From assembly GCF_018991925.1 (NCBI RefSeq), contig NW_024738608.1:2360787-2424786 (forward strand): a stretch of DNA of 64,000 nucleotides, written 5' to 3'. The DNA comes from Homarus americanus. Its lineage: Eukaryota; Arthropoda; Malacostraca; Decapoda; Nephropidae. The notes beneath the pieces are model-generated. The model saw only the letters and a list, made by a program, of their open reading frames with translations. It had not been told where the DNA came from and made no database searches. Below, one piece after another: positions 2,623 to 63,282 of this stretch; the first letter of the stretch is position 1; every line of letters begins with the position of its first letter. The position numbers and the translations under genes are program-made.

Positions 2623-3130
2623 TCAGTAATCAAAGTTGAAAATTCTCAAAATGTAGTTTAAAAACATGAGTGTTTCACCAGTGTCAGCATTAATAAGACT
2701 TTGATGTGGAGTGTATACATTACCACCAATGCTGAATAATCTTTCACTTTCCACCGATGAGGGTGGAGAAGAAAAAGGCTTGTTTGCAAGGAGAATTAAT
2801 GTTAGAAGTACTATGTTCTTATTGGTTTTCCACCAATCTAAAGGAGTTCCATCACATGCTTGCAATTATAATATCTGGTATCTGTCCATTTGAGCTCTAA
2901 TGATTGAAGTTGATACACAATGTTTTTTACTCGAACTCCTTTAATTAATTTTGTTTCTATAGATTTTATTTATCAAAAACAAAGTCCCTAAAGTCATCAG
3001 TTTGCCTTGATGGCAGTGAGAGTATTGCCTAACCCAAAAAATCCGAGCATCTGCTGAGGCTTCAGTTTGAACATTTGAAGAAACTTGATTTGAGGAATTA
3101 TCTCTGAATAGTTCATGATCTTTCATTCAA
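2623..3130 (-). pseudogene. hAT transposase C-terminal fragment
   Basis: The minus-strand frame 2623-2865 reads PLDWWKTNK, then SSVESERLFSIGGN, then LNADTGE-like sequence. This is the dimerisation region of hAT transposases of the ZBED type, which carries the conserved S-x-x-S-E-R-x-F-S block including the catalytic-region Glu. A related frame upstream (to about 3126) is separated by stops. No hAT ends or 8-bp duplication were found. It is a dead remnant of an element whose N-terminal DNA-binding and catalytic parts are missing. Confidence 0.75.
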
Positions 3131-3548
3131 CTGAACAGTGGTCTTGTGAAACATTTTCAATAGAGTAGAGAGTTTCCCAATCGTGTTCCATTTGTTTGCA
3201 TCAAACACAGGGAGGTTTGAGGCTTCAAGGCATAGTTTGCAATGGCAGTTTTTTGTTCAAATATGCTCTCTCAACATGAAATACATGCTCTTGCAACGAG
3301 TGGGGACATCTTGTATTAATATTGTACATTGAACAAGATAGAACACATTTATTAACCCAAAATATTTAATATATTTTAGAGAAAATATGACAGCTAGTTG
3401 TATTCCAGAGCAGTTCACTCACAGTAAGATATGCCATATGTGTAATAATGAAAATTGGTAGTACAGGTATTGGCTGCCAGAGACGAAAATTAAAGAAATA
3501 AAATTATAGGTAGTATCGGCTGAAAACTGGCCACTGCTGATACCAATA
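3131..3548. other. Unassigned non-coding sequence
   Basis: AT-rich, no recognisable coding or repeat signature beyond possible decay of the adjacent hAT fragment. Confidence 0.3.
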
Positions 3549-15290: not shown

Positions 15291-15300
15291 ACAGTGTATT
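15291..15300. repeat. 10-bp target-site duplication, left copy
   Basis: ACAGTGTATT abuts the element end AGGGGGCAG. The identical decamer follows the other end at 18859-18868. Confidence 0.88.
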
Positions 15301-15321
15301 AGGGGGCAGGGAAAAAACACT

Positions 15322-15327
15322 TTTATT
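15322..15327 (-). promoter_or_regulatory. Polyadenylation signal of the transposon gene
   Basis: The minus strand reads AATAAA here, about 240 bp past the stop codon and only about 20 bp from the element end, inside the terminal inverted repeat. This is well placed to end the transposase mRNA. Confidence 0.5.
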
Positions 15328-15566
15328 TGAGTTGCAGGCTGCACTTTTCAGGCATCGTTTGTATGGCTGTAACAAACACCTGTGCAAAATTTCATGCCAT
15401 TTCATGCATACTTACCCTGCCGCATCGCGAACGACTTTTTGTCAACTTTTAGTGTATACCAAAAATTAGGTGTCATTTAATGTTTTCCAGGATAATGATA
15501 AATTTTACATGGGTGACATCGATTTAATTCACATGTTATTTTACAGGTACACCGTATAGAAAATCA

Positions 15567-17963
15567 TTACAAGTTCATATTGAAATTCTTTTTTGTGCGG
15601 AACCTTGGCATCATTTTCCTAGACAATAATCTTTGCCTAATATATCCATCTCTCGATTCGTATCCCGTCACTTCAGTGCAAGCTTCAGTCATCACTTTTA
15701 TGCCTCTCTCGACCGCCTGAGTGCTGTTTGGCCACTTGGGCACCACTAATGGTGTCTCAAGAATGTCATTAACCTGTAGATTTGACAGAGAAGCAATGTA
15801 AGGAGGCTCAGTCTTGAGTTCATTCCTCCAGTTAATCATGGGATGATAGTTTTTTGCTTGCCACTTTAGTTTCGGAGTCACCACCTTTCTCATGTTGACT
15901 ACAGGAGGCACATCCTCATTCCCATCTCCATCTTTACCCTCCTCATCAGTATAGTTTAACAAATTCTCGTCAACAGCAGCATCAGAATCTTCCTCCTCCT
16001 CTTCAGATCTGCCAGTGCATTCTTCCTTTTGCTGATTCTCCTCTCTAATTTTTCTTATCATTGAGACAGCTTTTTCTCGAACAGTCATGTCCTCATCTGC
16101 ACACATACCAAGAAGAAGTTGATCTGTGTGGGCGAAGTATGCATTTCTCTGAACAGCCTTCTTCACTATCGTCTCCTCCTCACTATTCAGGTGTTTCATA
16201 TATAGCAGGGACTGGAATACGTTCCTTGAGCCGTGTGTTACGTAAGGGTGTATCTTGATGTAAAACCACATTGGAGCACTGAACTTTATTATTGTAATGA
16301 CAATTCTTTTCAACTCATGGCTGGGTCTTGATGTTGCTACATACAGCCTGAGGATTCTACTCCATAAGGTGTTCCACCTTGACACACAGGGAGGACCTGG
16401 CTCAATAGCAGCCAAGTCATCTTCAACAACACCTGTGATAACTCCTTTACAAATCCTATACAGGTATTTCTGATCCCAGGACAGATCTTTCTCCACTTCA
16501 TCATTAAACACAGGGAAATCAGGGAAACTGACTGGCTGGAAGGCGACAACTGGAAGCTCAGACAAAGACTCCTTGATCTGCTTTCCAATGGGACCACGCC
16601 AATGCTCAGGACCACTTGGTTTACCATCATAGTGATAAAAAACTGCGCGGAAAGGCAGCTCATTTCCGTGAAGCTGACATATGAAATAATGGAGCGGGTG
16701 ACCAAGTAACATTTCAAGATGATGAATGACTCCATTTTCTGATCCTACATTTACATTGGTTCCATCACAACCAACACACACAATGGGCTGCTGGGTTAGA
16801 TTTTTCTCCACCAGAAACTCGTGAATAGTTTTGGCAATCTGCTTTCCGTGTCCAGTCTTGGGAGTCACATGTGTGAGATATTCATTGCCAGGCTCAACCA
16901 TGATGACATAATGATCTTTCACCATCATCCTCGAACTCCATTTCTCGGTCTTCTCATTCTTTATCATCACACGAGTGGCGGTCTTCTTACCATCAAAATA
17001 GAGTGACGTCAAATTATCTAAACTAGCCATCTCAATTTCTTGCCTCTTAAATCGGTATTTTTGTCTCGCATCCCGCAGCTTATGTGGTCCAATAACCTGA
17101 CTCTTGTCATCCTTTGTGATAATGCCATAGTCAGTTAAGGTGGCAGTAGCAATGGCAGCTCCAGCATAATCACTAATCAAGTATCGGTCACAAGCGGCAG
17201 CCAGTGTAGGGAGTCTTGTCCGGTTCTGTGAACTGGTGTCTGTCAGAGCCCTTGGATCAGGGACAAAATCAGCATCAGTATTGACGAGAGGAATATCTCT
17301 TGAATCATCTGAATTATCCTCAACATAAGGAATATCTCCAGCTACCAGATATCTATGTTTATGCTCAAGCTGTCTCCTAACTCTGTCCGCATCATGCTTC
17401 TCTCTTGCCTTCACTCTGTCCCACATCTTCGTCACTTTCATGTCAACCCCTGCAATCTTCATCTTCCTATCACCCCGCTGGTCAAGGAGAAACTGCACCT
17501 CACGTTTGGGAACTTTTATAACACAATTACATGCCAGGTGATATCCGTCACACTCCTTAACTATGCACCTCACATCCTGACAGGAGGCAAGGGGACAATA
17601 ACAGCTACAGATATCAAACAACTCTTTCATTTCTACCTGAAATGCAGCTTTTTTGCCTACATTCTTGTTCTTATTTAGTTCAATTCCTCTACTGTACAAT
17701 TTTCTCAACCTTTCCTCAATATTTTTTTGGCTAAGAAGAGGAACATTCTGCCTATCTCCAATTGCTTTTTCCCATATTTGTGAACAGTCCTGGGCGGCCA
17801 TCTTTATAATCATTGAGACATCTGCAAACTTTCCGTCATCACATTTATATCGCCAGCAGTTCTTTAACATCTCGCCTTTCGAGGGAAGCTTGTCCACTGG
17901 AAGAACACTTGCAGAGCCAAACAATGCATGATCTGTGGCTGCCCTCGTTAATACAGTAGCCAT
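15567..17963 (-). CDS. DDE-type transposase of unrecognised superfamily (798 aa)
   Basis: Single exon ORF starting MATVLTRAATDHALFG. Residues 30-90 form a helical region (W-x-Y-K...I-W-E-K-A). Residues 119-147 hold eight cysteines (C119, C121, C123, C128, C133, C138, C145, C147), probably a zinc-binding DNA-recognition module, followed by KVPKREVQFLLDQRG. The catalytic-looking core has LYFDGKKT (D324), CVGCDGTNVNVG (D400), then FICQLHGNE, a C-x-x-H motif (C429, H432) as in hAT, Mutator, P and Kolobok transposases. A long, mostly helical insertion with an acidic stretch (poly-E/D) follows, and TQAVERGIKVMTEACTE supplies a candidate third acid (E752), positioned like the hAT C-terminal Glu. The ending SRDGYIRQRLLSRKMMPRF looks conserved. 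I have seen related multicopy 'uncharacterized' arthropod proteins, but know no firm name. Its position inside matched terminal repeats argues for a transposase, not a host gene. Confidence 0.85.
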   Translation of the reverse strand: MATVLTRAATDHALFGSASVLPVDKLPSKGEMLKNCWRYKCDDGKFADVSMIIKMAAQDCSQIWEKAIGDRQNVPLLSQKNIEERLRKLYSRGIELNKNKNVGKKAAFQVEMKELFDICSCYCPLASCQDVRCIVKECDGYHLACNCVIKVPKREVQFLLDQRGDRKMKIAGVDMKVTKMWDRVKAREKHDADRVRRQLEHKHRYLVAGDIPYVEDNSDDSRDIPLVNTDADFVPDPRALTDTSSQNRTRLPTLAAACDRYLISDYAGAAIATATLTDYGIITKDDKSQVIGPHKLRDARQKYRFKRQEIEMASLDNLTSLYFDGKKTATRVMIKNEKTEKWSSRMMVKDHYVIMVEPGNEYLTHVTPKTGHGKQIAKTIHEFLVEKNLTQQPIVCVGCDGTNVNVGSENGVIHHLEMLLGHPLHYFICQLHGNELPFRAVFYHYDGKPSGPEHWRGPIGKQIKESLSELPVVAFQPVSFPDFPVFNDEVEKDLSWDQKYLYRICKGVITGVVEDDLAAIEPGPPCVSRWNTLWSRILRLYVATSRPSHELKRIVITIIKFSAPMWFYIKIHPYVTHGSRNVFQSLLYMKHLNSEEETIVKKAVQRNAYFAHTDQLLLGMCADEDMTVREKAVSMIRKIREENQQKEECTGRSEEEEEDSDAAVDENLLNYTDEEGKDGDGNEDVPPVVNMRKVVTPKLKWQAKNYHPMINWRNELKTEPPYIASLSNLQVNDILETPLVVPKWPNSTQAVERGIKVMTEACTEVTGYESRDGYIRQRLLSRKMMPRFRTKKNFNMNL

Positions 17964-17988
17964 CTTGATAGCAAATTGATCAGATCAC

Positions 17989-18372
17989 CTGAAAAGAAAA
18001 AGAAAAAGTTAGTTATTAGAGCAATTTCTGAAAACACATCATCAATAGGCTTCTTGTGCATTAGTAAATAACGCCAAAATTAGTTAATCAGATATATAAT
18101 GTAGCCTAATTCAAATAAATGAAAATGGAAAGTATGTAACTAGTACTGTGCCGCCAACTTGCCCCATTTTTGTTGAGCCAACTTGTCCCAGCCGTACCAG
18201 TGATCATAAATAAATTATTTTGGTATATATCAAGAAGCCTAACATGAACTGTTTCATGGATAAACAATCCTTAAGCGCTAAGTTGAATTATGGCTAAATT
18301 GGATACTACAGTACTTGTCTATAACCTCACACATGTTACAGCAAACCTTATAAGAGAATAAAATTTACTTAC
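17989..18372 (-). other. 5' UTR intron of the transposase gene
   Basis: On the minus strand a donor TG|GTAAGT (first intron base 18372) and an acceptor CTTTTTCTTTTCAG (last intron base 17989) bracket 384 bp. The start ATG follows 26 nt after the acceptor, so the first exon is non-coding. Both sites are near-consensus and correctly ordered. Confidence 0.65.
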
Positions 18373-18858
18373 CAGCATCAAAATCAATTTTCCCCCACTC
18401 TAATCAAGACGTGCGGCGTCTCAGAATGACTGCTTATGGGTGACTGAGGAAGCACGTGGTGATCCTGCGGTGTGAACTGCTTAACGGTAACTATTTGAAT
18501 AATTTCAAGTGCGCCAACTTACCCAGGTCTCCCCTACATTACAGTACAGTAACACAACATTGAGAAATGAAATGAGAAAAGGCTGATAATCAATATAGAC
18601 ATAGCACCATACTCATCTGCAACAAGACAACTTAAATGAAATAAGAGATATGAAAAAAAAGTTGATAAACACTGAACAGAACATTGCACCGCCACAGCGG
18701 CTGTTTGGCTAGTACTGTAGGTAAATTTAAAAATTTCAATAGAAAATGCAGCAGACTAAACCTCGACATATCAGCTTCAAATTTGGCATGGAGTCTTAGA
18801 TATGTATAAGGAACAATGCCTGAAGAGTGCAGCTTTGAGCAAAATTTCACTGCCCCCT

Positions 18859-18868
18859 ACAGTGTATT
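18859..18868. repeat. 10-bp target-site duplication, right copy
   Basis: ACAGTGTATT immediately after CTGCCCCCT, identical to 15291-15300. The T before each decamer also matches, so the duplication could be read as 11 bp. Confidence 0.88.
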
Positions 18869-19210
18869 CACAAATTCATAATTAGTGTTGGGATGTGCCA
18901 ATAGAGTGGACCACAGTGAACATAAGAATATAAGGATGGAGGAAACTGTGGCGGGCCTATTGGCCCATACTAAGCAGTCCCATTACACCCAACCCCTATT
19001 GCTCATATATCCATCCAACCTATGTTTGAAGCTATCCAGCATATTCGAGTTAATGATGATATTTGGTAACTTGTTCCACTCATCCACTATATTTCCAAAC
19101 CAATGTTTACCTATTTCGCGCTTAAATCTAAATTTGTCAAATTTAAAACCATTGTTACGAGTTTGCTCCTGATTGTAATGTCCCCTTTGTTTAGCCTTGA
19201 CTTCCATTTA

Positions 19211-20763: not shown

Positions 20764-21322
20764 TGTAGAGTTACGTGAGATGTTTCTCCTCCATCCTGTG
20801 TGAGTGCGAATCTCCGGGGGTCACCATTTGTAGGGGTACGTGAGGCTATGTTGTCTAGCACTCAGGATGGGATGGATGGAAACTAGGTGGTGGTTTTCTT
20901 ATATAAAATATATTATGTACAAGACAGTCTGGTGCTGGAGATGCCGTGTGGTGAGAAGCTTGCTCATGAGACACGTTCAGTGAGTATCGTGCTTGAGGAG
21001 GTATCTGTGCAGGAGCTTTGTTAGAGGAGATGTTGCATGTTGCTGTCCTCCAGGTTGAATGAGAGCTGGAGGACAGTGAGGAGCTTGCTCGGAGGAGGTG
21101 TTGCGTGTTCAGGAACTTAGGGCAGAATGCCTCTCAATGGTGAGACTGAGAGCTTAGTATATACACAGCAGCGGGAAGTAAACCCCTGGAACTCACCGGT
21201 TGATGGGCTCTGTTGCTAGGGCAAACGTCGCAGGTGGCGACCCCCGTGAGCAGCTCGCTGCTTGCTAGGATACTGTCGCATTGGAATGCGGCTATGCAGT
21301 TGTAGGGGAGAGATCCACTACA
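20764..21322 (-). mobile_element. LTR retrotransposon remnant inserted in the CR1 copy
   Basis: It begins with a 22-bp scrap of LTR (TGTAGAGTTACGTGAGATG), then about 45 bp of internal sequence and the primer-binding region (minus strand TGGTGACCCCCGGAG), then a complete LTR 20829-21322 starting TGTAGGGG and ending TCCACTACA. A 4-bp duplication ATAC flanks it (20760-20763, 21323-21326). The CR1 copy at 63150 shows the unoccupied site GAGATATACCACATC. One LTR has been almost entirely deleted. Confidence 0.82.
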
Positions 21323-21758
21323 ATACCACATCATAATTGTGCCCTTTGTCCACCATTTCGAGAACAGTTGAAAAGAATGTTAATAGATTAGTTAGACATG
21401 AACGCCCACTTGTGAAGCCATGTTGGGAATCATTGATCAATTTGTACTTCTCCAAGTGATTTTGAATAGAGTTTGAAATTATTGCTTCCAGTAATTTGCC
21501 GACAATTGATGTTAAACTGATTGGACGGTAGTTAGAGGATAGTGATCTATCTCCCTTCTTGAAAATCAGTATTGCATTCGCTATCCTCCAGGATTCTGGT
21601 ACTACACCTGTTTTTAAGGACATGTTAAACAACTTTGCTAAGGGCATACTAAGTTCTTCCTTACATTCCTTTACTACTTTGGCAAATATCTCATCGGGAC
21701 CTGGTGACTTATTGGGCTTTAGTTTGTCTATTTGCCTACTAACATCATTACTGGTCAC
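21318..21758 (-). pseudogene. CR1-like reverse transcriptase core fragment
   Basis: Open for 146 codons: KLKPNKSPGPDEI, then ESWRIANAILIFKKGDRSLS, SNYRPISLTSIVGKLLEAII, NDSQHGFTSGRSCLTNLL. These are the fingers and early palm blocks of LINE reverse transcriptase. The frame stops before the FADD-type active site because of the LTR insertion and a local deletion. Confidence 0.9.
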
Positions 21759-21810: not shown

Positions 21811-22001
21811 GTTGTCTATGGTAGACCCTGCAGCCACATGGCATCACAAAAATTTTGACCAAGTCCCAGGTTGCTAATCTAACTTTCTGCCTCATTTACA
21901 CACAATTGCAGGGTCTCAATTGTTTCTCTTACTATTGACAACACAACATACATATATTGTTTCTCACTTTTTTTTTTTCATTTTGTATTTCTTTATGGTT
22001 C

Positions 22002-22048
<47 letters not shown>

Positions 22049-27218: not shown

Positions 27219-29917
27219 CAGTATTACCCCGCTTTACGCGGTTTCACTTTCCGCGTTTTCTCATTTACGCGGTGCCTCGCCAGAACCGAACTTTCACTTT
27301 CCGCGGCTCATCTACCCATATACTCGCAGAGTGTCCGGCTCGACGCTATTTTTAGATTCGCCCCACCCGCCTGCTCCCGCCTCCTCCCTCCTACGCCTCC
27401 GCCTGGCGAAGCCGCGCGGTAAGGTTGCGCAGTGCATGTCTCTGTTGCGTTATCACTGACGTCATATGACGTATCGGACTGTGATTGGCCATGCATCCCT
27501 ACCTCCCTCCGCTGCTAGCTATAATTGGTTTAAAGTAATATGACGTGTCCACCTGGAGGAGGGAGGGAGGGAGGGAGGGAGGGAGGGAGGGAGGAAATAC
27601 AACGCTTGACCTAGCCGCGGCAGTTTCATCCCTCCAGGCCACATCGTGTATACGTGCATCCATTGTTCTGTGAAATGGCTTCCGCCGGACCACCGCCACC
27701 AGAGAGAAACCTTTCCTTACCTGGACCCAGGCGCCCTAAGCCAAAGAAGATACGACGTTCCCTAAGCTACGAAGTGAAATACCAGATAATTCAAGATTTG
27801 GAGAAAGGAACACGTCAAGCTGATCTCGCACGCAAGCATGGAGTCAACGAATCTATGATTCGTACTATTAAGAAGGATGCAGCCAAGATCAAAGCGCACA
27901 TGAGAATCACAAAGTCTGCAGGTGCTTCAATGATCAAGTATTGCCAGAACAAGGTGCTGCTAAAGGTGGAAAATTTGCTGGTGAGTTATTTGATTCGTCA
28001 GGCGCGACGCAACATGGCGGTGGACACGCGATCCGTTCAAAAGTACGCACGTGAACTGTACGCAGCAGTGTCACGTAAGATGGGAATTGCAGAGCCCAAA
28101 CCCTTCAATGCTTCCTCTGGTTGACTGCATAGGTTTAAGATGAGGAACAATATCACCAACATCAACATTGGTGGTGAAGAAGCGAGTGCTGACCGTGTGG
28201 CGGCAAGAGATTTTCCTCCGTTCTTAAGTGAGGTTATGGAGGAAGGGCAGTACACTGACGACCAGGTGTTCAACATGGACGAATCCGGCCTATTTTGGAA
28301 AAAGCTGCCTACCAAGACCTTTGTTGTCCAGTCTGCCAGCAAGGTTCGGGGTCGGAAGTTGCAGAAGGAGCGCATCACCGTCCTCTTTACCACCAATGCC
28401 TCCGGTACCTGTAAACCAAAGTTATCGGTGATTCACACAGCCCGCAAGCCGCACGCCTACAAGAACGTGGACATGAGCAAGATTAATGTCCACTGGCTGA
28501 CCGCACGCAAGGCGTGGATGTTCTCTGCTCTGTCACTCTCCTGGTTTGATGACTGTTTCATTCCTGACGTGAAGAAATTCTGCGAGCAAAAAAATGTTCC
28601 ATTCAAGATTTTGTTGCTCCTTGACAACGCACCAGGACACTCGCCCCAACTTATGGATCATCACCCCAACGTAAAAGTGGTCTTCCTTCCTCCCAACACT
28701 GCGTCATTAATCCAGCCCATGGACCAGGAGTTGATCTGCAATGTTAAAGCTGCATACTCGGCAAAGAAATTCAAGATCCTGAAAGACTGTACCAACACCA
28801 AGGATGAGTTGCGTAAGCTGGGTGACACCGACAGCGAGAGTAAAAGCGACGAGGACAAGGAACAAGAGGTGGTGACTCAAGAAGTTCTCGTCAAACAGTT
28901 TTGGAAGAAATTTAACGTCAAACAAGCTGTAGACTTCTTGGTGGAGGCATGGGATCAGCTGTCTATAGCTACGATTTGTCACGCATGGAGGCATGTGTTG
29001 CATGGCATACCAGGTGAGAGGCGGAGTCAACCTGTGACTGGTTTGGTTCAGTCTGTGACAGTGGCATTGGACCTTGCAAGAGAAGCTGCGCACAGTATTA
29101 CAGCTGAAGGCTTCTCCGAGACCACCAACGAAGACATCCTGGAGGTGATCAGAGATCCTGAAATGACTGCCGACGAGATGTTGGAAGATGATAATGTCAG
29201 TGAAGAGGAAGGTGGTGCGTCAATCCCAGAAGAACACAAATTAACGCATAGTAATATTAAGGGTGCCATCGAGTGTGCAGATAAATTACAGCTCTTCCTT
29301 TCCAACGACTATGACGATGACCGCTACGAAGTCTTCCATACCCGGCTGGTGCAGGCTATGGAGCCGTACATCACGGTGTATCAAGATAACATCAACACTA
29401 GCCGTCAAAAAAGCATTACCGAGATCTTCGCCCGCAACCCACCACAGCCAGCCAGAGCCAGTGATAGTGACATTGAAGGTGAAGGTGACTTTGAGGGATT
29501 TGTCAGGGAGGCCCTGACAACTATAACGGATAGTGATGGTGATTCACCTGGTGATGGTGATTCACCTGAGGGCCAGTAATCTGCCCTCTGTCTCAGAACC
29601 AGCCTCCATCCCCGTACGCCGACCCATCTCTTCTACTAACGTAAGTGTTCAACCTAACTTTTAGTTTTCCTAACCTAACCTTTATTTTTCCTAACTTAAC
29701 CTTTATTTTTCCTAACCTAACCTCTTCTATATTACTTGTTTGTTCATACCATCATAAAGTTAAGATAAAATTTTTACTACAACATAGTTGTGTGTTGTCA
29801 AAAAGTGGAGTTTGGGGGTCGGGCCAGTCTGTATTGGAATTAATCCCATACGTTCTGTTGTTCACTTAACGCGGTACCCTGTGGGTTCAATTGACCGCGT
29901 AAAGCGGGGTACAACTG
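27219..29917 (+). mobile_element. Tigger element, full length, nearly intact
   Basis: 2,699 bp flanked by TA. It starts CAGTATTACCCCGCTTTACG and ends AAGCGGGGTACAACTG. TTACGCGG words repeat inside the ends. The 5' leader holds a (GGGA)n run near 27560, and the 3' part carries short TTTTCCTAACCTAACC repeats. It encodes one transposase frame broken by a single stop. It is the likely parent type of the shorter copies at 920, 11082, 22958 and 31866, which share its ends. Confidence 0.93.
27675..29579 (+). pseudogene. Tigger (pogo/Tc1-mariner) transposase with one in-frame stop
   Basis: The frame starts MASAGPPPPERN, with a Kozak-like GAAATGG, and runs 634 codons to TAA. Residues about 25-75 form the psq/CENP-B helix-turn-helix (YQIIQDLEKGTRQADLARKH, then GVNESMIRTIKKD); about 85-150 form the second DNA-binding domain. 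The DDE core has NMDESGLFWKKLP (D202), LLLDNAPGHS (D317) and NTASLIQPMDQE (D350), the DDD type expected for pogo/Tigger. The tail is acidic. Codon 150 (28122-28124) is TGA where related proteins have Trp just before LHRFK. The frame is otherwise open on both sides, so this one substitution is the only visible lesion. The element could still be moved by an intact relative. Confidence 0.93.
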
Positions 29918-45292: not shown

Positions 45293-45899
45293 TGCTACTA
45301 CTTTTTTTTTTAAACGTGGCCTCCAGCCTCTCCCAAGAGCCACACCTTCGCCGCCATTTTATAACCTTAAAATTAACTATCCTAATACATAAGTAAGCTA
45401 CCCTGGCTATGTTGAGTTAGTTAAGCAGCAGATCTCTGCGGCATTCAGTGACTGAGCCTCAAAGTCGATATCTGCGACTGTTGTCGACTTTGGAGCTGAT
45501 GCTCTCGTTCCCCTGAGGAAAAGCAATACAGAACTAAGCAGAGAGAAGGACAGTCGACATCTCAACCAAGCTGTAACATAACTTCTGGGCTGCTGCTTCC
45601 GTTCAGATAACACCTCCGCGAGTCTAGCTTAGAAGCATCTTGCACTTGGTCCCATCCCACCAGAGGTTGTGAACACCAGAGGAGTGAAGCTGCCTTGATC
45701 AATGTTCTGAATTCTCTCCCCATATGCCCTAATCTTGTCGTTCTCATTCCTCCTGTGTGCAGCATCGAGAGCTAAGTTGCGGTGACATGCAGCCATGGGA
45801 TAAAAAATCCTTATGTCAAAAAAGGCTCGCTGTCCCTGCGTCCAGAATCCTCGACCACTGACGTCTGCAGGGCCGGATTTACCTACTTGTGGGCCCCAG

Positions 45900-48112
45900 G
45901 CCAAACTCATCAGTGGGCCCCCAAATTTGTCAATGATACTGTTTGTGTCAAGGGATTGTAGGAGGCCAGATTCAATGCATAATAATGAAAGTGAGTTTAA
46001 TCTGGATTGTCCCATGGTAGACCTCAGGTGATTTTTCACCCTAGATAGAGTAGAGAAAGGCCTCTCTCCTTCACAATTTGTAATGGGGATGGTAAGGAAA
46101 ATTCTTACCAAGATATTAATGTTTGGAAAGGCAGTTGTCAAAATACCATCTTTGGACCTCAGCAAAGTGGAGATGTTTGTCACTGACCTGTCAGATTCAG
46201 AAGACAAAATGTCTTTAAATTGCAAAAACTCCTCTAGAACAGATGCTTCCACGTCAATGGAATAGGTACTGACAACCAATTCCAGTTGGGCTTTGAGATC
46301 ATCATATTTCATACTATCATACTCCGTTAAGAAGCTAAACAGCTTCTTTATTTCTGAGTAGGCATTCACTGTGCTCTAATTCATCCCTAAGGCAATCTAA
46401 TATGGTGTAGAAATTATCCACCTTGAACTTCTCACGTGGATCAAGTTGAGTTTCAGTGCCAACTGATTCATCAAAGAAATTTTTTCACTTTTTTGTTCTT
46501 TTTTTTGTCTCTGTGTAGACAGGCTCAGCAAAAGCCCTAGCCTGATAACTTCTATTTCATCAAACTGACCCCGTCTCATTTCTGAGACGAAGGAGATCAA
46601 ACTCTCATACAGTTTCACAACTGACAGAAGGTCGGTCTCAACTTTTTGAAGTGATAAGCTGGTTGCATTAAACCTTGTCAAGATTTTATACCATATTACA
46701 GTAAGAAGTGGTTTCAAATGCTTCCATTTGTCTTATGAGGCCTTCACCTTCAAGCTTTGTAGCCACAGTTTGTCTACTGTCAGAACATATGTTCTCCAGT
46801 GCTGACTTTATCTCAAGGTAATGTAAAAACACTGCTTTAACAGCATCAGCCCTCGCACTCCAGCGAGTTTCTGAAAGGGATTTCACTACAATCCCTTCAG
46901 CAGGTAGTGCAGCTTTCAAGTGATCTCATCTATATGTGGAGGCTGAGAAGAAGTTGTATGAGGCCTTCACCTTCAAGCTTTGTAGCCACAGTTTGTCTAC
47001 TGTCAGAACATATGTTCTCCAGTGCTGACTTTATCTCAAGGTAATGTAAAAACACTGCTTTAACAGCATCAGCCCTCGCACTCCAGCGAGTTTCTGAAAG
47101 GGATTTCACTACAATCCCTTCAGCAGGTAGTGCAGCTTTCAAGTGATCTCATCTATATGTGGAGGCTGAGAAGAAGTTGTATAAGGCTTGCAAAAATCTG
47201 GAATAAGAAACAGACCCAAGGCAACTGCTGGCAGCTGATGTTTCTACAAGGTTCAAGGAGTGACCTGCACAAGGGACATAATATGCCAGGGGATTCATAG
47301 CCTTTATTCTGTCTTGGAGAGCAGTGTAAATGCCTGACATATTGGCAGCATTGTCATAACTCTGCCCTCTCATGTCACTCAAATCAAGACCAACATCTTT
47401 AATTAACTGTACAACAGTTGAGGCTATGCTCTCTGCACCATGGTTATGTATGTCTATGAACTTTAGAAATCGCTCAACAGGTTTGCCATCAGGTTTGACA
47501 TAACGAACTATGAATGTAAGTTGGTCAGTATGACTAACATCCGGTGTGGAATCTACACTAACTGAATAATATTTGGCTTGTTTCACTTCACTTATGATAA
47601 TTGAGTGAATTTCGTCAGCCATCAGATTGACCATTTCCTCACAAATCGTTTTTGAGAGATATGAAGTCTTCTACTACCTACAGCACCATACTTCTCCAGA
47701 TGCTGTGCAAGAAAAGGATCAAATTTTGCCAGGAGTTCCAGTACTCCAAGGTAATTCCCATTGTTGCTAGAGCCTATTCTTTCATCACTACCTCTGAGAG
47801 AAAGACTTCTTGATGTTAAAAATAATAGTGATTCAACTATGCGCAATAGAACTTCTTTCCAGTATTTTCTCTCCAATTCTACTTGCAAAGCCAAAGTGGA
47901 ATCAATTCGCCTTGCTGTAATTGCCCTCACACCCCAAGTAGTATCTGAGATTTTATGCTCTTTGCTACTTTCATGTTCAGCAACTCTACGCTGGCAGTTT
48001 TTCCAGTCGCTAAACCCACTAGTAAGCAACGAGACTTGCTTGCTGAATACCACCCCATGGCCCACCAGTTGAAGACCACTGCGGGCCTATACTTATTGTA
48101 CAGGGGCCCCAT
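45900..48112 (-). pseudogene. hAT transposase (TTF/DUF4371, ZMYM1-like), frameshifted
   Basis: Reading down the minus strand: a TTF-type zinc-finger region (GFSDWKNCQRRVAEHESSKE, 47950-48060); SLSLRGSDERIGSSNNGNYL and LLAKFDPFLAQHLEKYG; the catalytic-domain start YYSVSVDSTPDVSHTDQLTF with GQSYDNAANMSGIYTALQDR and the C-x-x-H-like VPCAGHSLNLVE (47149-47634); LSETRWSARADAVKAV; and the C-terminal dimerisation block FLTIPITNCEGERPFSTLSR (46050-46100). Several frameshifts and a 223-bp tandem duplication break it. It is dead. Confidence 0.88.
46734..47179. repeat. 223-bp tandem duplication inside the hAT pseudogene
   Basis: TATGAGGCCTTCACCTTCAA begins at 46734+0 (first unit, from about 46734) and again at 46957, offset 223 bp, and the two units look virtually identical. 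223 is not a multiple of three, so the duplication itself shifts the frame; MKAALPAEGIVVKSLSETRW is encoded twice. Confidence 0.92.
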
Positions 48113-49390
48113 ACTCCGGGCCCTATACCTATTCTACAGGGGCCCTTATGGTTGTGAATATATTATATAATGAAATACTCGGTGTACACTTGAAACAAGG
48201 TTATACGCTGGCATGCTGCGCGACAAATTAGTTTCAGTGGGCCCCCAGATACCGGTGGGCTTCGTTGGATGTGTTTGAAGTCCTGTGACGGAGGTTCTCA
48301 CCGTCTAATGGAAGGAGGGGCGGTTCCACCATGACGTCGTGGCAGATTTCCCTCATTAGATTTGCTGTTAGATCCCTTACTTTGTCATGCCTCATGCATA
48401 CAAAGCCCCCCTTCTTGCACACCATGGCGTGGTCGATGTCATAAGATGAGCCACACACGCATTGGGAGGTTAAACCTTTTACTGGCCTACCGTACCTTAG
48501 AGCAATGGCATCTGTGAATTCTTGTTTATTAAGGATGAAACCTTTTTGCCCTTATTGGTAACGTTGTTAACCAGTTTGAGGCTCCCACCTCCTGTGCTAT
48601 AGCTACTTTTCTTTTCACGTTCGCTGGCACTTGTTGCAATAGTTGTTGCAGTTTATCACTTTGGGTTTGCTGCCGCTCTGTCGTAAGGGACAGTCGAATC
48701 TTGTTTAATTCGTTGGTATTCACCTGACTTGCGGCATTCTGATTTCTTATGTGCTCAGTGAGAGCTGCCGTGAGCTTGACAGAGTTCTGATGTTCTGTAC
48801 GGGCAAGCTCCACTGGATTAGTCAATCCCATTCCTCCTAGTCTCCGTGGTAGTGCAAGGAGTGACCTTTCTGCTGGGGTTAAGTAAGGGTTTCTCACTAG
48901 TTGGGATAAAAGCGACATTGATGGCTTCTTCCAAAGGGAGGGGGAGGGGTCCAGCATCAGGGATAATGCGCATCAGGTAATTCCAGCGATGCTTGACTCC
49001 ACGGGTGAATGCCGCAAAAGCCGCATGTGGCTCTGTTTTAGCAATATCAAACAGAGCTTGGATTTCCTTCACCCACTCATTCACATTTCCCGTTACATAC
49101 TCGGTCTTGAAGTCATTCGTGCCAATTACCGCACCAAGATGTCTTTGGCCATCTTTTGTTATTTTGACCTCACTTCCACCGAACACCTCCATTGCCCGTT
49201 CATAGTGTTCTGGCTTCACAACACAGTGAGGAAGGACTTACTGGCGTTTGGGTGGTACCCTATTTGTGGACCTCGTGATGTTACCAGGTCCCACCACTTT
49301 TTGGTTGTCCTCCACTTTTCCTGCTCCTGTTAGGTCATCAGCGTATGCCACTTGCTTGACCTCGGTTGTTTCATATTTTATTGTATGTTA

Positions 49391-49436
49391 GACTACTACT
49401 ACTACTACTACTACTACTTTTTTTTACTACTACTAC
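49391..49436. repeat. (ACT)n microsatellite between retrotransposon copies A and B
   Basis: ACTACT units with an internal run of eight Ts. Confidence 0.9.
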
Positions 49437-49773
49437 TACGTGGCCTCAAGGCCTCCCCCAATAACCACACCTTCGCCACCATTTAATTACCTTAATATTA
49501 AATATCCTAATACATAAGTAGCTATCCTATCTGTGTTAAATTAGTTGAGCCGCAGGTCTATGCGGCATTCAGTGACAGTAGCCTCATTGTCAATATCTGC
49601 AGCAGTTGTCGGAGTTGGGGCAGAAGCTCTCGTTCCCCTGAGGCAGAGCAAAGCCGACCGGAGGAGAGAGAAAGACAGTCGACATCTCATCCAGGCTGTA
49701 ACATAACTTCTGGGCTGCTGCTTCTGTTCGGAGATCAACTCCGCGAGTCTGGCGTAGAAACATCTTGCACTTG
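49437..49773 (-). mobile_element. RLE-type retrotransposon copy B (3' end only)
   Basis: About 337 bp of 3' end: GGCCACG at the terminus, the 3' UTR, and the last coding part (LISEQKQQPRSYVTAWMRCR). It is 5'-truncated at CTTGG and both ends abut (ACT)n. Confidence 0.88.
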
Positions 49774-49774
49774 G

Positions 49775-49816
<42 letters not shown>
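49774..49816. repeat. (ACT)n microsatellite between copies B and C
   Basis: Fourteen or so ACT units, followed by the T-rich 3' tail of copy C. Confidence 0.9.
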
Positions 49817-49817
<1 letters not shown>

Positions 49818-52124
49818 TTTATTTATTTTTTATTAACGTGGCCTCCAGCCTCCCCCAATAGCCACACCTTCGCCACCATTTATTTACCTTAATATTAAAT
49901 ATCCTAATACATAATAAGCTATCCTATCTGTGTTAAATTAGTTGAGCCGCAGATCTATGCGGCATTCAGTGACTGTAGCCTCATAGTCAATATCTGCAGC
50001 AGTTGTCGGAGTAGGGGCAGAAGCTCTCGTTCCCCTGAGGCAGAGCAAAGCCGACCGAAGGAGAGAGAAAGGACAGTCGACATCTCATCCAGGCTGTAAC
50101 ATAACTTCTGGGCTGCTGCTTCTGTTCGGAGATCAACTCCGCGAGTCTGGCGTAGAAACATCTTGCACTTGGGCCCATCCCACCAGAGGTTGTGAACACT
50201 AGAGGAGTGAAGCTGCCTTGATCAACGTTTTGAATTCTCTCCCCATATGCCCTTCTCTTGTCGTTCTCGTTCCTCCTATGTGCAGCATCGAGAGCTAGGT
50301 TACGGTGACAAGCGGCCATGGGATCAAAAATCCTGATGTCGAAGAAAGCTCGCTGTCCCCGCGTCCAGAATCCTCGAGCACTGACGTCCACACGGGCTTC
50401 GTTAGATGTGTTTGAAGTCCTGTGTTGGAAGATCTCGCCATCCAGTGGAAGGAGGGTCGGTTCTACCATGACGTCCCGGCAGATTTCCTTCAACATATTT
50501 GCTGTGAGATCCCTTACCTCGTCATGCCTCATGCATATGAAGCCCCCCTTCTTGCAGACCATGGCGTGATCGCCATCATAGGAAGAGCCACACACGCATT
50601 GGGAGGGCAAACCATCTACTGGCCAACCGTACCTTAGAGCAATGGCATCTGTAAATTCTTGTTTGTTAAGGCTGAAACCATTTGCCCTTATCGGTAACGT
50701 AGTTAACCAGTTCGAGGCGCCCACCTCCTGCGCTATAGCTACTTTTTTTGTCAAATTTTCTGGAACCTGCAGCAATAGTTGCTGCAACATGTCATTTTGG
50801 CAGTGCTGCCGATCTGTTGTAATGGACCTACGGATCTTATTTACTTCGCTGGTGTCCACTTCCCCTGTTGCATTCTGGGCTATTATGTGGTCAGTGAGGG
50901 CTGCCGTGAGCTTAAGTGAATTTTGATGTTCAGTGTCAGCAATCTCCTCTGGATTAGTTAGTCCCATCCCTCCCAGTCTTGGTGGAAGTGCAAGAAGTGT
51001 TCTTTCTGCTGGGGTTAAGTCAGGGTGTTTCACTAGTTTGGGAATGAACTTGACACTGATAGCTTCTTCCAGAGGGTGGAGGAGGGGTCCGATCTCAGGG
51101 ATGGTACGCATCAGGTAGTTCCAGCGATGCTTGACTCCATGGGTGAATGCTGCAAAGGCCGCATGTGGCTCTGTGTTAGCAATCTCAGACAGAGCTTGGA
51201 TTTCGCTAACCCACTCATTCACCTTTCCCGCTACGTACTCGGTCTTGAAGTCCGTAGTGCCAATTACTGCGCCTAGATGTCTTTGGCCGTCCTTAGTTAT
51301 TTTGACCTCACTTCCGCCAAAAACCTCCAATGCCCGTTCATAATGTTCTGGCTTCACGATGAGGAAGGACTTGCTGGCGTTTGGGTGGTACCCTATTTGT
51401 GGACCTCGCGATGTTACCAAGTCCCACCACTTTTTGATGCACTCCACTTTTCCTGCTCCTGTAAGGTCATCAGCATATGCCACTTGTTTGACCCCAGTTG
51501 TTTCAAATTTTATTTCTTGTTGGAGCACTGATAGGCCAATTGCATACATTGCCATTGCAACGGGGTCCCCCTGTGTTGTTCCCTCGGTCGACTGTAGGAT
51601 GGTATCACCTCGTAGAGCCTTGTTGTTTACTATGTAGAGGTCTGAAGGATTCCTATACGAATTTTCAACATACATCGCAAAGCTTGGACACTTGATCTTG
51701 ATGTTGTGCAGTGCAGCCTTGCGGTTAAGTATGTTGAATGCGTTTGAAGCATCCACCAGAAGAACGGCCTCACAATCACGCTGCTCAAATATCAATCTCA
51801 TGGCGTGAATGGCCGCCTCCCCACCAGCCTGGTGGCCAGCACACACTTGTAGGTTCCCTGCTGCTGCCCTGACATCGTCCTTTACCACCTCCATTATGCA
51901 CTTTCCGATGATCCGCCTCAGCACTTCCCCCACCCCTATAGGTCTACATCCTGGTTTCTTTTCCAGAGGAATAAGGCGGCAGGCCGTCAGGGCCTGGAGG
52001 TGATGGCAGCGAGAGGATGCAAGCTTTCTTGCAAGGGCGGCAATGGCAGTGCAGAGATCGCTTGCTACAGGGCCAAACTTGTTTGTGCTGAGGATGACTC
52101 TCCAACCGTTTGCATCCAGACCTC
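49817..52124 (-). mobile_element. RLE-type non-LTR retrotransposon copy C
   Basis: The longest copy. It is 5'-truncated where the minus strand switches from (TAG)n to GGTCTGGATGC, and ends GGCCACGTTAATAAAAAATA before (TAG)n. It carries a long open frame. All three copies share 3' UTR and flank sequence type. Confidence 0.9.
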
Positions 52125-52125
52125 T
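49987..52125 (-). CDS. Reverse transcriptase with restriction-like endonuclease, 5'-truncated
   Basis: About 712 codons of retrotransposon protein follow the repeat-derived start. Order: GLDANGWRVILSTNKFG; CRLIPLEKKPGCRPIGVGEV (finger blocks); CEAVLLVDASNAFNILNR (motif A Asp); STEGTTQGDPVAMAMYA; QVAYADDLTGAG (YADD active site); thumb with LLALPPRLGGMGLTNPEE; a Cys-Cys-His-Cys knuckle CVCGSSYDGDHAMVC; then RHDEVRDLTANMLKEI and RVDVSARGFWTRGQRAFFDI, a PD-(D/E)xK-like restriction endonuclease. That domain order is that of early-branching LINEs (R2, R4/Dong, NeSL, CRE). The N-terminus is missing. The last 30 or so codons differ from copies A and B because of a one-base difference near 50068. Confidence 0.88.
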   Translation of the reverse strand, partial: RGLDANGWRVILSTNKFGPVASDLCTAIAALARKLASSRCHHLQALTACRLIPLEKKPGCRPIGVGEVLRRIIGKCIMEVVKDDVRAAAGNLQVCAGHQAGGEAAIHAMRLIFEQRDCEAVLLVDASNAFNILNRKAALHNIKIKCPSFAMYVENSYRNPSDLYIVNNKALRGDTILQSTEGTTQGDPVAMAMYAIGLSVLQQEIKFETTGVKQVAYADDLTGAGKVECIKKWWDLVTSRGPQIGYHPNASKSFLIVKPEHYERALEVFGGSEVKITKDGQRHLGAVIGTTDFKTEYVAGKVNEWVSEIQALSEIANTEPHAAFAAFTHGVKHRWNYLMRTIPEIGPLLHPLEEAISVKFIPKLVKHPDLTPAERTLLALPPRLGGMGLTNPEEIADTEHQNSLKLTAALTDHIIAQNATGEVDTSEVNKIRRSITTDRQHCQNDMLQQLLLQVPENLTKKVAIAQEVGASNWLTTLPIRANGFSLNKQEFTDAIALRYGWPVDGLPSQCVCGSSYDGDHAMVCKKGGFICMRHDEVRDLTANMLKEICRDVMVEPTLLPLDGEIFQHRTSNTSNEARVDVSARGFWTRGQRAFFDIRIFDPMAACHRNLALDAAHRRNENDKRRAYGERIQNVDQGSFTPLVFTTSGGMGPSARCFYARLAELISEQKQQPRSYVTAWMRCRLSFLSPSVGFALPQGNESFCPYSDNCCRY

Positions 52126-52148
52126 ACTACTACTACTACTACTACTAC

Positions 52149-52192
<44 letters not shown>
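52125..52192. repeat. (ACT)n followed by (AAT)n microsatellite
   Basis: The target array at the 5' junction of copy C. ACT units grade into AAT units. Confidence 0.95.
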
Positions 52193-52193
<1 letters not shown>

Positions 52194-52772
52194 ATGAATA
52201 GTAAGATAATAATATATCCACTACTTAAGCGTTTTTGGCATTATGACAAACGGAAGCAAAACCATCATTGAAATTAGTTATGACTTCAGCTTGAACAAAA
52301 CCTAAACCAAGTCACTTTTGCCATTTAATTAAAACGGGTCATATCCTGGCTGTATTATTCAGTAACTTAGATATAGGATACAAAAAGATTTCAAAGCGTA
52401 AATATGAATAAAGACGAGAGAAAAAAATAGGTAACAGACCTGAACAAAATTAAGAGGAAACTAAAAACGCCGACATTGTACCGAAGAATATTACTAAGTG
52501 AATAGGTAGAGGGAATGAGAGAGTGGAGAGAAAATATACCATTAGGGTGAACTGCCGACAGAAAAACATTATTGCTATTATTAAAAGTTAGAGAAAGTAA
52601 GCAGAAGAAATAATGGCAAGTGGGGGTAGTGGAACCGTGAGTGATGGAAGACTGAGGGGGAGTGAAAAACAGAAGGAATACGAGATTAACGGATAGATAT
52701 AAAGATATAAACAACTAGACAGAAAAGGAGAAAATGACAACTAAATAAATAAGGTATTTATTATTATTTGTA
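52193..52772. other. Unassigned non-coding sequence
   Basis: AT-rich, purine-biased. No recognised signal. Confidence 0.3.
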
Positions 52773-55880: not shown

Positions 55881-57530
55881 TTTTAGAAAAGCCGTTATTA
55901 ATCGAGTGATCTAAACACGTGTGATCTTGGTCATGTGATCTTAGAAAACGAGATCTTGACTGTGTGGTCTTAGAAAACACGTGTGATCTTGACTGTGATC
56001 TTAGAAAACACGTGTGATCTTGGTCATATGATCTTAGAAAACAGGTGTGACCTTGGCCATGTGATCTTAGAAAACACGCGGTCTTGGCCACGTGATCTTA
56101 GAAAACACGCGGTCTTGGCCATGTGATCTTAGAAAACATGTGGTCTTGGTCATGTGATCTTAGAAAACACGTGTGATCTTGGTCATGTGATCTTAGAAAA
56201 CACGTGTGATCTTGGCCATGTGATTTTAGAAAACACGCAGTCTTGGCCATGTGATCTTAGAAAACATGTGGTCTTAGCCATGTGATTTAAGAAAACACGT
56301 GTGATCTTGGCCATGTGATTTTAGAAAACACGCAGTCTTGGCCATGTGATCTTAGAAAACACGTGGTCTTGGCCATGTGATCTTAGAAAAAACGTGGTCT
56401 TGGCCATGTGATCTTAGAAAACATGTGGTCTTAGCCATGTGATTTAAGAAAACACGTGTGATCTTGACCATGTGATTTTAGAAAACACGCAGTCTTAGCC
56501 ATGTGATTTTAGAAAACACGTGTGATCTTGGCCATGTGATCTTAGAAAAAACGTGGTCTTGGCCATGTGATCTTAGGAAACACGTGATCTTGGCCATGTG
56601 ATTTTAGAAACACGTGTGATCTTGGCCATGTGATCTTAGAAAAAACGTGGTCTTGGCCATATGATCTTAGGAAACACGTGATCTCGGCTATGTGGTTTTA
56701 GAAAACACGTGTGATCTTGGCCGAGTGATCTTAAACACGTGGTCTGACCATGTGATCTTAAACACGTGGTTTTTGGCCATGTGATTTTAGAAAAACACGC
56801 GGTCTTGGCCACGTGATCTTAGAAAACACATGATCTTGGCCATGTGAGGCTTAGAAACACGTGGTCTTGGCCATGTGATCTTAGAAAACCGCGGTCTTGG
56901 CCATGTGATCTTAGAAAACACGTGGTTTATGCATGTGATTTTAAACCGTCGTCTGGCCATGTGATCTTAGAAAACATGGTTTTTGGCCATGTGATTTTAG
57001 AAAACACGCGGTCTTAGCCACGTGATCTTAAAACACGCGGTCTTAGCCATGTGAGCTTAGAAACACGTAGTCTTGGCCATGTGAGCTTAAAACACGTGGT
57101 TTTGGCCATGTGATTTTAGAAACACACTGATCTTGGCCACGTGATCTTAGAAAACATGTAGTCTGGCCACGTGATCTTAAACACGCCCGGTCTTGGCCGT
57201 GATTTTAGAAAACGCAGTCTTGGCCATGTGAGCTTAGAAAACACGTGGTCTTGGCCATGTGATCTTAGAAAACACGCGGTCTTGGCCACGTGATCTTAGA
57301 AAACACGCGGTCTCGGCCATGTGATCTTAGAAAACACGCGGTCTTGGTCATGTGAGCTTAGAAAACACGTGGTCTTGGCCACGTGATCTTAGAAAACACG
57401 CGGTCTTGGCCATGTGATCTTAGAAAACACGCGGTCTTGGCCACGTGAGCTTAGAAAGCACGTGGTCTTGGCCATGTGATCTTAGAAAACATGTGTGATC
57501 TTGACTGTGTGATCGTAGACATCTGGTTCT
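55881..57530. repeat. About 31-bp minisatellite, about 50 copies
   Basis: The unit is close to GTGATCTTAGAAAA, CACGTGGTCTTGGCCAT. Length varies from 26 to 33 bp with substitutions such as CACGCGG, CACGTGTGATC and CATGTGG. Nearly every unit has a CACGTG or CACGCG core. Open frames through it are artefacts. Confidence 0.93.
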
Positions 57531-60687: not shown

Positions 60688-62871
60688 CGTTCCCGGATTT
60701 TAGGAAGGTTACGTGGCTTAAGGAGAGACCTGCGGGATAACTTTATGGTCAAAAGATTAATCCCCACCTCCGAAACTTTAAGTCAACTTATGAATGTGAT
60801 AACCTTTAATTTAATTTGAAGGGTGCTACTTATGAACAATTTATTGCTAGCAATCAATAATGCCCAAAAATAAACACATATCCCCAAAAGAAAATCAGAT
60901 CGATACGGAACCAACCAAAATGGATGAATAATAGACTTTCAGATCTTCTAGGAAAAAGAAAGGAGTATATAGAAAAGTTAAGAAAGGCGAAAAATCACTT
61001 TTACTTGGTTACTAACAGAACTCAACAAGACAGGTAAAAACAGAAACAGGAAAGCAAAGAGAAATTATGAACTGTAACGAAAGCAAACTTAATCGAAAAA
61101 ATAACCCCAAAGCTTTTTATCAACTGTATAAATCAAAAGGTTAGAGATACAATAGGTCCCCTTAAACCAATATAGGAAATGACTGATGATGAGTTAGGAA
61201 ATAGTAGCACGCAATAGTCATTAGCCCAGATTCTCACAAATGAAAACTTAGCACAGTTTCAGTTCATAAGGTATATAACGACAGTAGAAAGTGTTGATGA
61301 ATATTACTAGTAACGATGTTAAAGTAATTAACAAACTGGCTCTCATAAATCGCCTGGTCCAGACGAGGTATAAGTAGACGGTTAAAAGAATGTAGAGATG
61401 AGTTGGTAATCCATTAGCAGTTTTTGGCTGCATTAAGTCATTAGAATCGCCTAGTGCCAGAAGCTTGGAAACTTGCAAATGTAGTTCCGATTTTCAAAAA
61501 GGGTGATAAATCAATAGCATCAAATTACCGTCCCATTAGTCTTCACGTCAACTTCGCAAGTTGCTAGAGTCAATTATTGCTACAAAAATCAGAAGCCACC
61601 TTGAAACATTCAACTTAATTCATTCTTCTAGCACGGGTTCACCCAGGACGCCCTTGTCTCTACAAATTTGCTTTAGCTTTTTCTCAGAAGTAAATGAAGG
61701 GTAGATAATGATAAGTCATATGATATAATTTATTTAGATTTCAGTAAAGCATCGATGCAGAGTCCTCATGAGAGATTGATATGGAAGGTAGAAGCACATG
61801 GAATAGTATCTTCTGCATAAAATGGATTAGGTCATGGTTAACTGGTAGGAAACAAAGAGTCAGCATAAATGGATTAAAAGCCAGACTGGGGTGTGGTCAA
61901 AAGCGAGTTCCCAGGGATCTGTATTAGGCCTCTGCTGTTTGTTATATTCATTAATGATCTTGATTTAGGCATAACTAGTAGGATTAGTGAATTTGCAGAG
62001 ATGATACCAAAATGGGAGAGGATAACTAGACAGTGACTTTGAACACCTTCAAGAGATTCTAGATACCTTACATGAGTGTCAGTAGACTGGCAATGAATTT
62101 TTAATACTGATAAATGCAAGGTACTACAGATAGGAAATATTTGTAAATTGCCAAACGTTAAGTATAAACTAGGTAACACGGAAATAGAAAACTCAGTTTG
62201 TGAAAAAGATCTAGGTGTATTTGTTAGCAACGACTTGAAACCTAGAAAACAATGTATTAGCGTTCGCAAATAAGGCAAACAGATTCTTGTTCATATCTAG
62301 GTCTGTGAGTAACAGAATCAAGGACGTTATCTTGAACTTTACTAGCATTAGTGAGGCTCACATGGATTATATGTTCAGTTCTGGTGTCCTTATTATAGAA
62401 TGGACATAGATTCTTGAGAGAGTACAAAGAAGAATGACAAAATGATCCATAATATTAGAAACCTTCATATGAAGAAAGCACTGAAAAGCTTAGGCTTACA
62501 TTCATTAGAGAGGCGTAGAGTTAGGGGAGATATGATAGAGGTGTACAAATGGGTAAGTGGGATTAACAAGGGTAAAATGGAAGATGTTCTGAAGCTCAGT
62601 AATAACGAAATAACTAGAACAAATGGCTTTAAATTAGATAAATTCCGATTCAAAAAGGATATAGGCAAGCACTGGTTTGGTAATAGGGTTGTGGATATGT
62701 GGAATAGGCTACCGAGTGCTATAGTAGGATCGGGGACGCTAGGGAGCTTCAAGACGAAGTTGGATAGGCACATGGAAGTGTTGGGATGGGTGTGAAAGGG
62801 ATCTGCCCTGTATGGGCCAGTCGGCCTCCTGCAGTATCCCACTTTCTTATGTTCTTATGTTCTTATGTATT
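60688..62871 (+). mobile_element. CR1-like LINE inserted head-on in another CR1
   Basis: A degenerate plus-strand copy: RT blocks near 61340-61960 with many stops, then an open C-terminus (62442-62795) with LKSLGLHSLERRRVRGDMIE, TRTNGFKLDKFRFKKDIGKH and a terminal HMEVLGWV. It ends CACTTTCTTATGTTCTTATG, an 8-bp TTCTTATG tail as in CR1 elements. Its subfamily differs from the flanking minus-strand copy. Confidence 0.85.
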
Positions 62872-63282
62872 TTAGTGTCATCAGCAAATTTACTTATGTT
62901 GCTGTCTATGCCGATATCTATGTCGTTTATGTATATAATAAATAATAATGGTCCAAGTACTGAGCCCTGGGAAACTCCACTAGTGCCGTTGCTCCAACGG
63001 GATTTAGTGCTGTTAATGCTCACTCGCTGTTTTCTGTCCTGTAACCACGCCCTAATCCATTTTAGAATATTACCTTTAATGCCATGTGCTTCTACCTTTC
63101 TTATATGTCTTTCGTGGTGGACTCTGTCGAAAGCTTTGCTAAAGTCGAGATATACCACATCATAATTCTGCCCGTCGTCCACCGATTCGAAAACTGATGA
63201 AAAGAATGTTAATAGATTAGTTAGACATGAACGCCCACTTGTGAAGCCATGCTGGGAATCATTGATCAATTTGTGCAACTAC
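62872..63282 (-). mobile_element. CR1-like LINE, RT core (continuation of 59860-60687)
   Basis: Minus frame, 143 codons open: LINDSQHGFTSGRSCLTNLL, YDVVYLDFSKAFDRVHHERH, GVSQGSVLGPLLFIIYINDI, SNISKFADDTKIHKN. It includes the FADD active site. It joins the sequence left of the plus-strand LINE: the RT reads across if 60688-62871 is removed. Confidence 0.9.

Follow-up and report, generated by a model that had tools for sequence, protein, structure and literature searches.

What kind of DNA transposon occupies positions 15,300 to 18,859 of a 64,000-nucleotide stretch of the Homarus americanus genome (contig NW_024738608.1, positions 2,360,787 to 2,424,786 of the forward strand; hereafter "the window")? 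An initial annotation had described it as a complete element of an unrecognised superfamily with a 10-bp target duplication. Comparison with other copies in the source genome and with known transposases leads us to a different answer, to which we assign a probability of roughly 0.78: this is a full-length, autonomous and young cut-and-paste transposon, which operates in the manner of hAT elements and most likely represents a deeply diverged lineage of the hAT superfamily. We hold its hAT-like way of working with high confidence, and its place inside the superfamily, as such a diverged lineage, with moderate confidence.

The element is indeed complete, its ends at 15301-15309 and 18850-18858 forming a perfect AGGGGGCAG/CTGCCCCCT pair, and the extended terminal repeat and intact 798-codon gene that had been reported are likewise present. 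Its features, in window positions, are as follows:

15300-18859, minus (gene strand): whole transposon, 3,560 bp, with the terminal T and A, conserved in other copies, counted in
15300-15314, plus: left terminal inverted repeat (TIR), TAGGGGGCAGGGAAA, one of a 15-nt pair that is 93% complementary
18845-18859, minus: right TIR, pair of the left one, reading TAGGGGGCAGTGAAA on the minus strand
15338-15359, plus: left subterminal inverted repeat, GCTGCACTTTTCAGGCATCGTT, one of a 22-nt pair that is 91% complementary
18812-18833, minus: right subterminal inverted repeat, the other member of that 22-nt pair
15292-15299, no strand: left target-site duplication, CAGTGTAT, 8 bp, read from the sequence, its register set by 35 other copies
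18860-18867, no strand: right target-site duplication, CAGTGTAT, 8 bp, read from the sequence, its register set by other copies
15567-17963, minus: intact transposase open reading frame (ORF) of 798 aa, whose start and end align with full-length relatives
17989-18372, minus: probable intron of 384 bp in the 5' untranslated leader of the transposase gene, recognised by eye from a GTAAGT donor (18372-18367) and a pyrimidine-rich CAG acceptor whose last base is 17989

The outermost 15 bases of the two ends are inverted copies of each other with a single mismatch. The subterminal repeats, which begin 38 and 26 bases inside the AGGGGGCAG ends and match each other at E 2e-4, are a candidate transposase-binding site.

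The flanks of the window insertion match literally over 10 bp, with ACAGTGTATT on both sides, and to this extent the initial annotation was right. The same letters allow two readings: AGGGGGCAG ends with a 10-bp duplication of ACAGTGTATT, or TAGGGGGCAG ends with an 8-bp duplication of CAGTGTAT. Because a single insertion cannot fix the boundary, we compared other copies in the source genome (2.206 Gb in 34,269 contigs). The end sequence AGGGGGCAGNGAAA occurred at 680 + 667 sites, against 20 + 33 for a reversed control pattern, an abundance far beyond chance. Our sample of 35 copies (L009-L043) comprised all neighbouring plus/minus end pairs among the first 100 of these 1347 sites, with 30 unpaired ends excluded. 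The base just outside AGGGGGCAG was T in 34 out of 35 copies on the left and A in all 35 on the right, and genome-wide the T was present at 1273 of the 1347 AGGGGGCAGNGAAA ends (the reversed-control counts being 8 and 53). Conserved across copies, the T at 15300 and the A at 18859 are thus part of the transposon, and the terminal repeat is TAGGGGGCAG.

Tabulating the duplication lengths of other copies, a check that the initial annotation had itself proposed, gave an exact 8-bp flank repeat in 21 out of 35 copies once TAGGGGGCAG ends were used, 7 bp in one copy and a longer repeat in none; shuffled flank pairings gave 8 bp in 175 out of 7000 cases. Among 14 loci with both ends that were found by protein search, 3 of which were already in the 35-copy sample, 8 had an exact 8-bp duplication. 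Of the 21 exact copies, 5 had A as the outer base on the left and 8 had T on the right, common enough for the window's outer A and T to be a coincidence that mimics 10 bp; one other copy (L036; 1 out of 35) has the same apparent 10-bp match. The target duplication of this transposon is 8 bp. The initial annotation had excluded hAT on the ground that hAT elements give 8 bp, so that exclusion falls, and with it the case for an unrecognised superfamily that was argued from a 10-bp duplication.

The 22 exact duplications (the 21 and that of the window) share the palindromic consensus nTGTACAn, with T2 in 16, G3 in 19, T4 in 18, A5 in 13, C6 in 20 and A7 in 18; the window's CAGTGTAT deviates at position 2, where it has A, not T. 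The flanks of L015, L025, L026 and L029 contain target repeats displaced by 1-3 bases, or separated from the end by a few additional bases, which may reflect either imprecise joining or later change. The 8-bp register is also visible at an empty site within the window:

21838-22006, minus: empty-site paralogue of copy L027, an uninterrupted repeat that contains the 8-bp target once and lacks the terminal T and A

Across the junction, the joined flanks of L027 and this paralogue are identical at 158 out of 172 bases. The window also holds a relative that spans the junction of L032 at 84% identity; a spanning match is present for L017 as well, but it is less telling since L017 sits in a short tandem repeat. 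The genome search found no empty paralogue of the window's own insertion. The right flank of that insertion (18919-19017) is a dispersed repeat with many genome copies at 90-95% identity.

Searching 5.8 billion proteins with the 798-aa protein, we obtained 67 relatives by sequence and 85 with a profile; the search requires shared 5-residue words, and the sharp boundary of the clade is in part a limit of the tool. Our alignment has 53 members, the query and 52 of the 67 relatives; the 15 left out, among them P0002 (see below), were mostly shorter. Conservation was nearly complete at D324 (53 out of 53), D400 (52 out of 53), C429 and H432 (53 out of 53 each), R529 (53 out of 53) and W530 (52 out of 53); E752 was present in 47 out of 47 and R753 in 46 out of 47 aligned members, 6 of the 53 rows being gapped there. 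In the predicted structure, D324, D400 and C429xxH432 lie in an RNase-H-like core, R529-W530 in a helical insertion, and E752-R753 on the last core helix. When the structure was compared by VIA-align, Hermes headed the 50 matches listed, with an RNase-H core and a Hermes-like helical insertion; P-element and RAG entries were not among the VIA-align matches listed, which proves nothing. The N-terminal domain (residues 1-245) is confidently modelled as helical, with conserved CxC...CxC cysteines, the helical and cysteine-bearing part spanning roughly residues 1-210; the PDB holds no convincing solved counterpart, and the model makes the domain a candidate for a new DNA-binding fold.

The initial annotation had stated that duplication length, ends and protein do not together match a known superfamily, and for the protein this is correct as far as curated families go: Pfam, NCBIfam and PHROGs gave nothing significant for the 798-aa protein. 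A sequence search of the PDB gave nothing relevant, a viral fold library gave no match to the predicted structure at E 0.001, and no relatives were confirmed in IMG/VR contigs or GTDB genomes. PF27073 was precomputed on 1 of the 85 relatives, a match that we did not reproduce; the same model lies on 118 of the 120 listed matches of ZMYM1-type hAT. A genome search with P0018, which is 38% identical to the query, recovered only loci of the window's transposon family among the 56 candidates scored. The end sequence, the preferred target, the catalytic residues and the predicted fold all point to hAT or to a sister group.

PMC6027215 gives the hAT TIR consensus as (T/C)A(A/G)NG and its plant extension as (T/C)AGNGNNG; the TAGGGGGCAG end fits the former, and the latter in all but the last G. 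The target preference of Hermes, nTnnnnAn (PMC10368747), recurs here, with T2 in 16 and A7 in 18 of the 22 exact duplications. Key hAT residues are D180, D248, R318, W319 and E572 in Hermes, and plant hATs conserve a C and an H (PMC6027215); D324, D400, C429, H432, R529, W530 and E752 follow this order. The equivalence is based on their order, on the predicted secondary structure and on the aligned range, and is not a residue-by-residue superposition. With hAT elements (Hermes, hobo, Ac and the ZMYM1/ZBED type) the transposon thus shares an 8-bp duplication, short TAG-type TIRs and an nTnnnnAn-type target, as well as an RNase-H fold with a helical insertion that VIA-align places nearest Hermes. 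Because ends (TAGGG), duplication, nTGTACAn target, key residues and fold all agree with hAT, we conclude that the transposon works like a hAT element. It differs from typical members in having no detectable hATC or BED domain, a different N-terminal helical and cysteine-containing domain, a coding region in one ORF and only marginal sequence similarity. Plant hATs also have F/W and S directly after the E (PMC6027215), whereas the query has R-G-I-K after E752.

Several observations weigh against placing the element in hAT. Neither hATC (PF05699) nor BED was found in any of the 53 members at Pfam E ≤ 0.1; the only weak Pfam matches, in one member each, were to hAT-like_RNase-H (E 0.028) and DDE_Tnp_ISL3 (E 0.065), and two family consensus sequences gave no transposase match even at E 10. 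Aligned to hAT with hhalign, the whole protein reached a probability of 2.7% (E 0.017) and the core one of only 5.8% (E 0.0066), which exceeded 40 shuffles; taken alone, the C-terminal part gave no alignment. The top Foldseek match was a P-element transposase, Hermes was not among the 50 matches listed, and no Foldseek match reached E 0.001. At the level of insertion sites, 14 out of 35 copies lacked an exact 8-bp duplication, and 11 of these had at least 3 in-register mismatches; of the others, one had 1 mismatch, one had 2 and one was the 7-bp case. Several of the 11 adjoin AT repeats, and some have the target displaced by up to 3 bases.

The missing hATC match may simply mean that the profile does not reach so divergent a transposase: the same library found PF05699 at 1.5e-10 in an ordinary hAT elsewhere in the window, and the Hermes fold match of VIA-align covers the C-terminal region where hATC would lie. 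An N-terminal BED zinc finger is found in plant hATs and Hermes, and its absence from the 53 members counts against a typical hAT, not against an element that works like one.

After hAT membership itself, the account that survives best is a separate superfamily sister to hAT. Such a group would share with hAT the 8-bp stagger, the type of ends and the fold of an RNase-H core with insertion, but would bind DNA through an N-terminal domain of its own and lack a dimerisation region of hATC type. We consider this account unlikely: conservation extends to all 7 of the tested hAT positions (D, D, C, H, R, W and E), in unchanged order, the ends and the target preference are of hAT type, and the sharp homologue boundary is partly the limit of a word-based search.

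A P-element-like or MULE-like transposon is much less probable still. P elements duplicate 8 bp, and in both the P group (Drosophila P, THAP9) and MULEs a helical domain is inserted into an RNase-H core and a C/D-xx-H motif is present; P elements thus resemble the window transposon in duplication length, in a DDE core with an inserted domain and in providing the top Foldseek match. The P-element TIR and target sequence are unlike those found here, and MULE duplications are mostly about 9-10 bp, unlike the 8 bp of the window transposon. No THAP, P-element or MULE transposase domain of Pfam was found in the 53 members at E ≤ 0.1. The C/D-xx-H motif, which the 798-aa transposase shares, is given for the P-element superfamily in PMC8230255.

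An undescribed superfamily with AGGGGGCAG ends and a 10-bp duplication is refuted by the other copies. In its favour is the literal match at the window insertion and at L036; against it stand the near-invariant terminal T and A, exact duplications that never exceed 8 bp when read in the TAG register, and an empty site of L027 that lacks the T and the A.

The hAT-like family is young, as the initial annotation had supposed of the window element, and was very recently active. The 1273 exact ends would correspond to about 640 copies or more, and mismatches between the window copy and 49 loci (3 of them duplicates of others) ranged from 0.31 to 1.14%, with a median of 0.52%. The protein search of the genome returned 57 matches at 97-100% identity (56 candidates scored out of 10,678 at first look). 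At 4 loci among the scored candidates, the match to residues 1-798 was free of stops: the window's own, L046, which has an exact 8-bp duplication, L047, whose left end contains one additional G and whose two flanks have identical 8 bases, and L052, with a slightly shorter frame and a damaged left end. We infer present-day activity, and the copy is possibly still mobile.

All 35 sampled paired copies were internally deleted; the full-length L045 and L046 came from the protein search. The sample contained 29 distinct deletions, close to a separate one for each copy, with breakpoints at element positions 1347-2421 on the left and 3118-3395 on the right. Every copy kept at least the left 1.35 kb and the right 0.16 kb, and none sampled was shorter than 1.7 kb. 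Microhomology was found at 26 out of 27 filler-free junctions, with a mean of 3.1 exact bases over the 27 compared with 0.69 at random (the top mean of 5000 draws was 1.48); the remaining two junctions had 1-2 bases of filler. These microhomology-joined deletions would fit interrupted gap repair following excision.

The relative P0002 is identical to the query at 560 out of 561 residues from residue 238 onwards, while the sequence for its initial 37 residues lies in another part of the element. We considered and rejected a splice form, since the P0002 junction (window 18585 to 17252) matches the deletion shared by L022 and L024, a net loss of 1332 bp joined at a 2-base AG microhomology, and has no GT donor. 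Selection for in-frame truncated transposases was unsupported as well: the P0002 frame occurred in 11 of the 29 distinct deletions, with no frame bias.

Working like a hAT element, the 798-aa transposase would bind the terminal and subterminal repeats. Its RNase-H active site, formed by D324, D400 and E752, would cleave at the TAGGGGGCAG ends, and R529-W530 of the helical insertion would presumably act as R318-W319 do in Hermes. Hairpins would form on the flanking DNA during excision, and the ends would be joined over an 8-bp stagger at nTGTACAn. Post-excision gaps would probably often be repaired incompletely, giving rise to the many internally deleted copies.

Other mobile elements and repeats lie in the same window:

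45629-48065, minus: broken ordinary hAT of ZMYM1 type (PF05699, PF14291), holding a 223-bp tandem duplication at 46734-47187; a Homarus americanus protein is 94% identical over 27% of the query
27654-29579, plus: transposase in two adjoining ORFs, CENP-B_N then DDE_1, which we take to be Pogo/Tigger-like
48529-52221, minus, as well as 21318-21758 and 62847-63278: reverse-transcriptase-like ORFs
49392-50172: 397-bp tandem duplication
55913-57519: about 52 tandem copies of a 31-bp unit

In 49987-52221, the sole reverse-transcriptase-like stretch checked, the match to RVT_1 was slightly under the curated cut-off.

Relatives of the lobster transposase with organism names are few in all: Caligus rogercresseyi FKW44_018646 and entries from the aphid Macrosiphum euphorbiae, the beetle Brassicogethes aeneus, the thrips Frankliniella fusca and the snail Biomphalaria pfeifferi. 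They are 30-62% identical to the query at E 1e-53 or better and are annotated as uncharacterized, unnamed or hypothetical (SNF2L1 in Frankliniella); 4 out of 6 are shorter, at 338-632 aa. It is rather unlikely that they mark an animal superfamily sister to hAT and outside the searched Pfam and NCBIfam, present in crustaceans, aphids, beetles and thrips as well as in a snail entry, with a new N-terminal DNA-binding domain and private microhomology deletions at almost every insertion. Our literature search, in which the end sequence itself was sought only in part, found no paper on the transposase clade or its ends; the transposon may well have been described before as a named hAT element.

A single literal match between flanks can imitate a new duplication length, and only multiple copies fix the boundary of an element. 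The locus also brings to light a broad clade of animal transposases that the protein libraries searched had missed and whose members appear in genome records as uncharacterised proteins. A young family with intact copies and many independent deletions is a good natural system for hAT-type gap repair and mobility.

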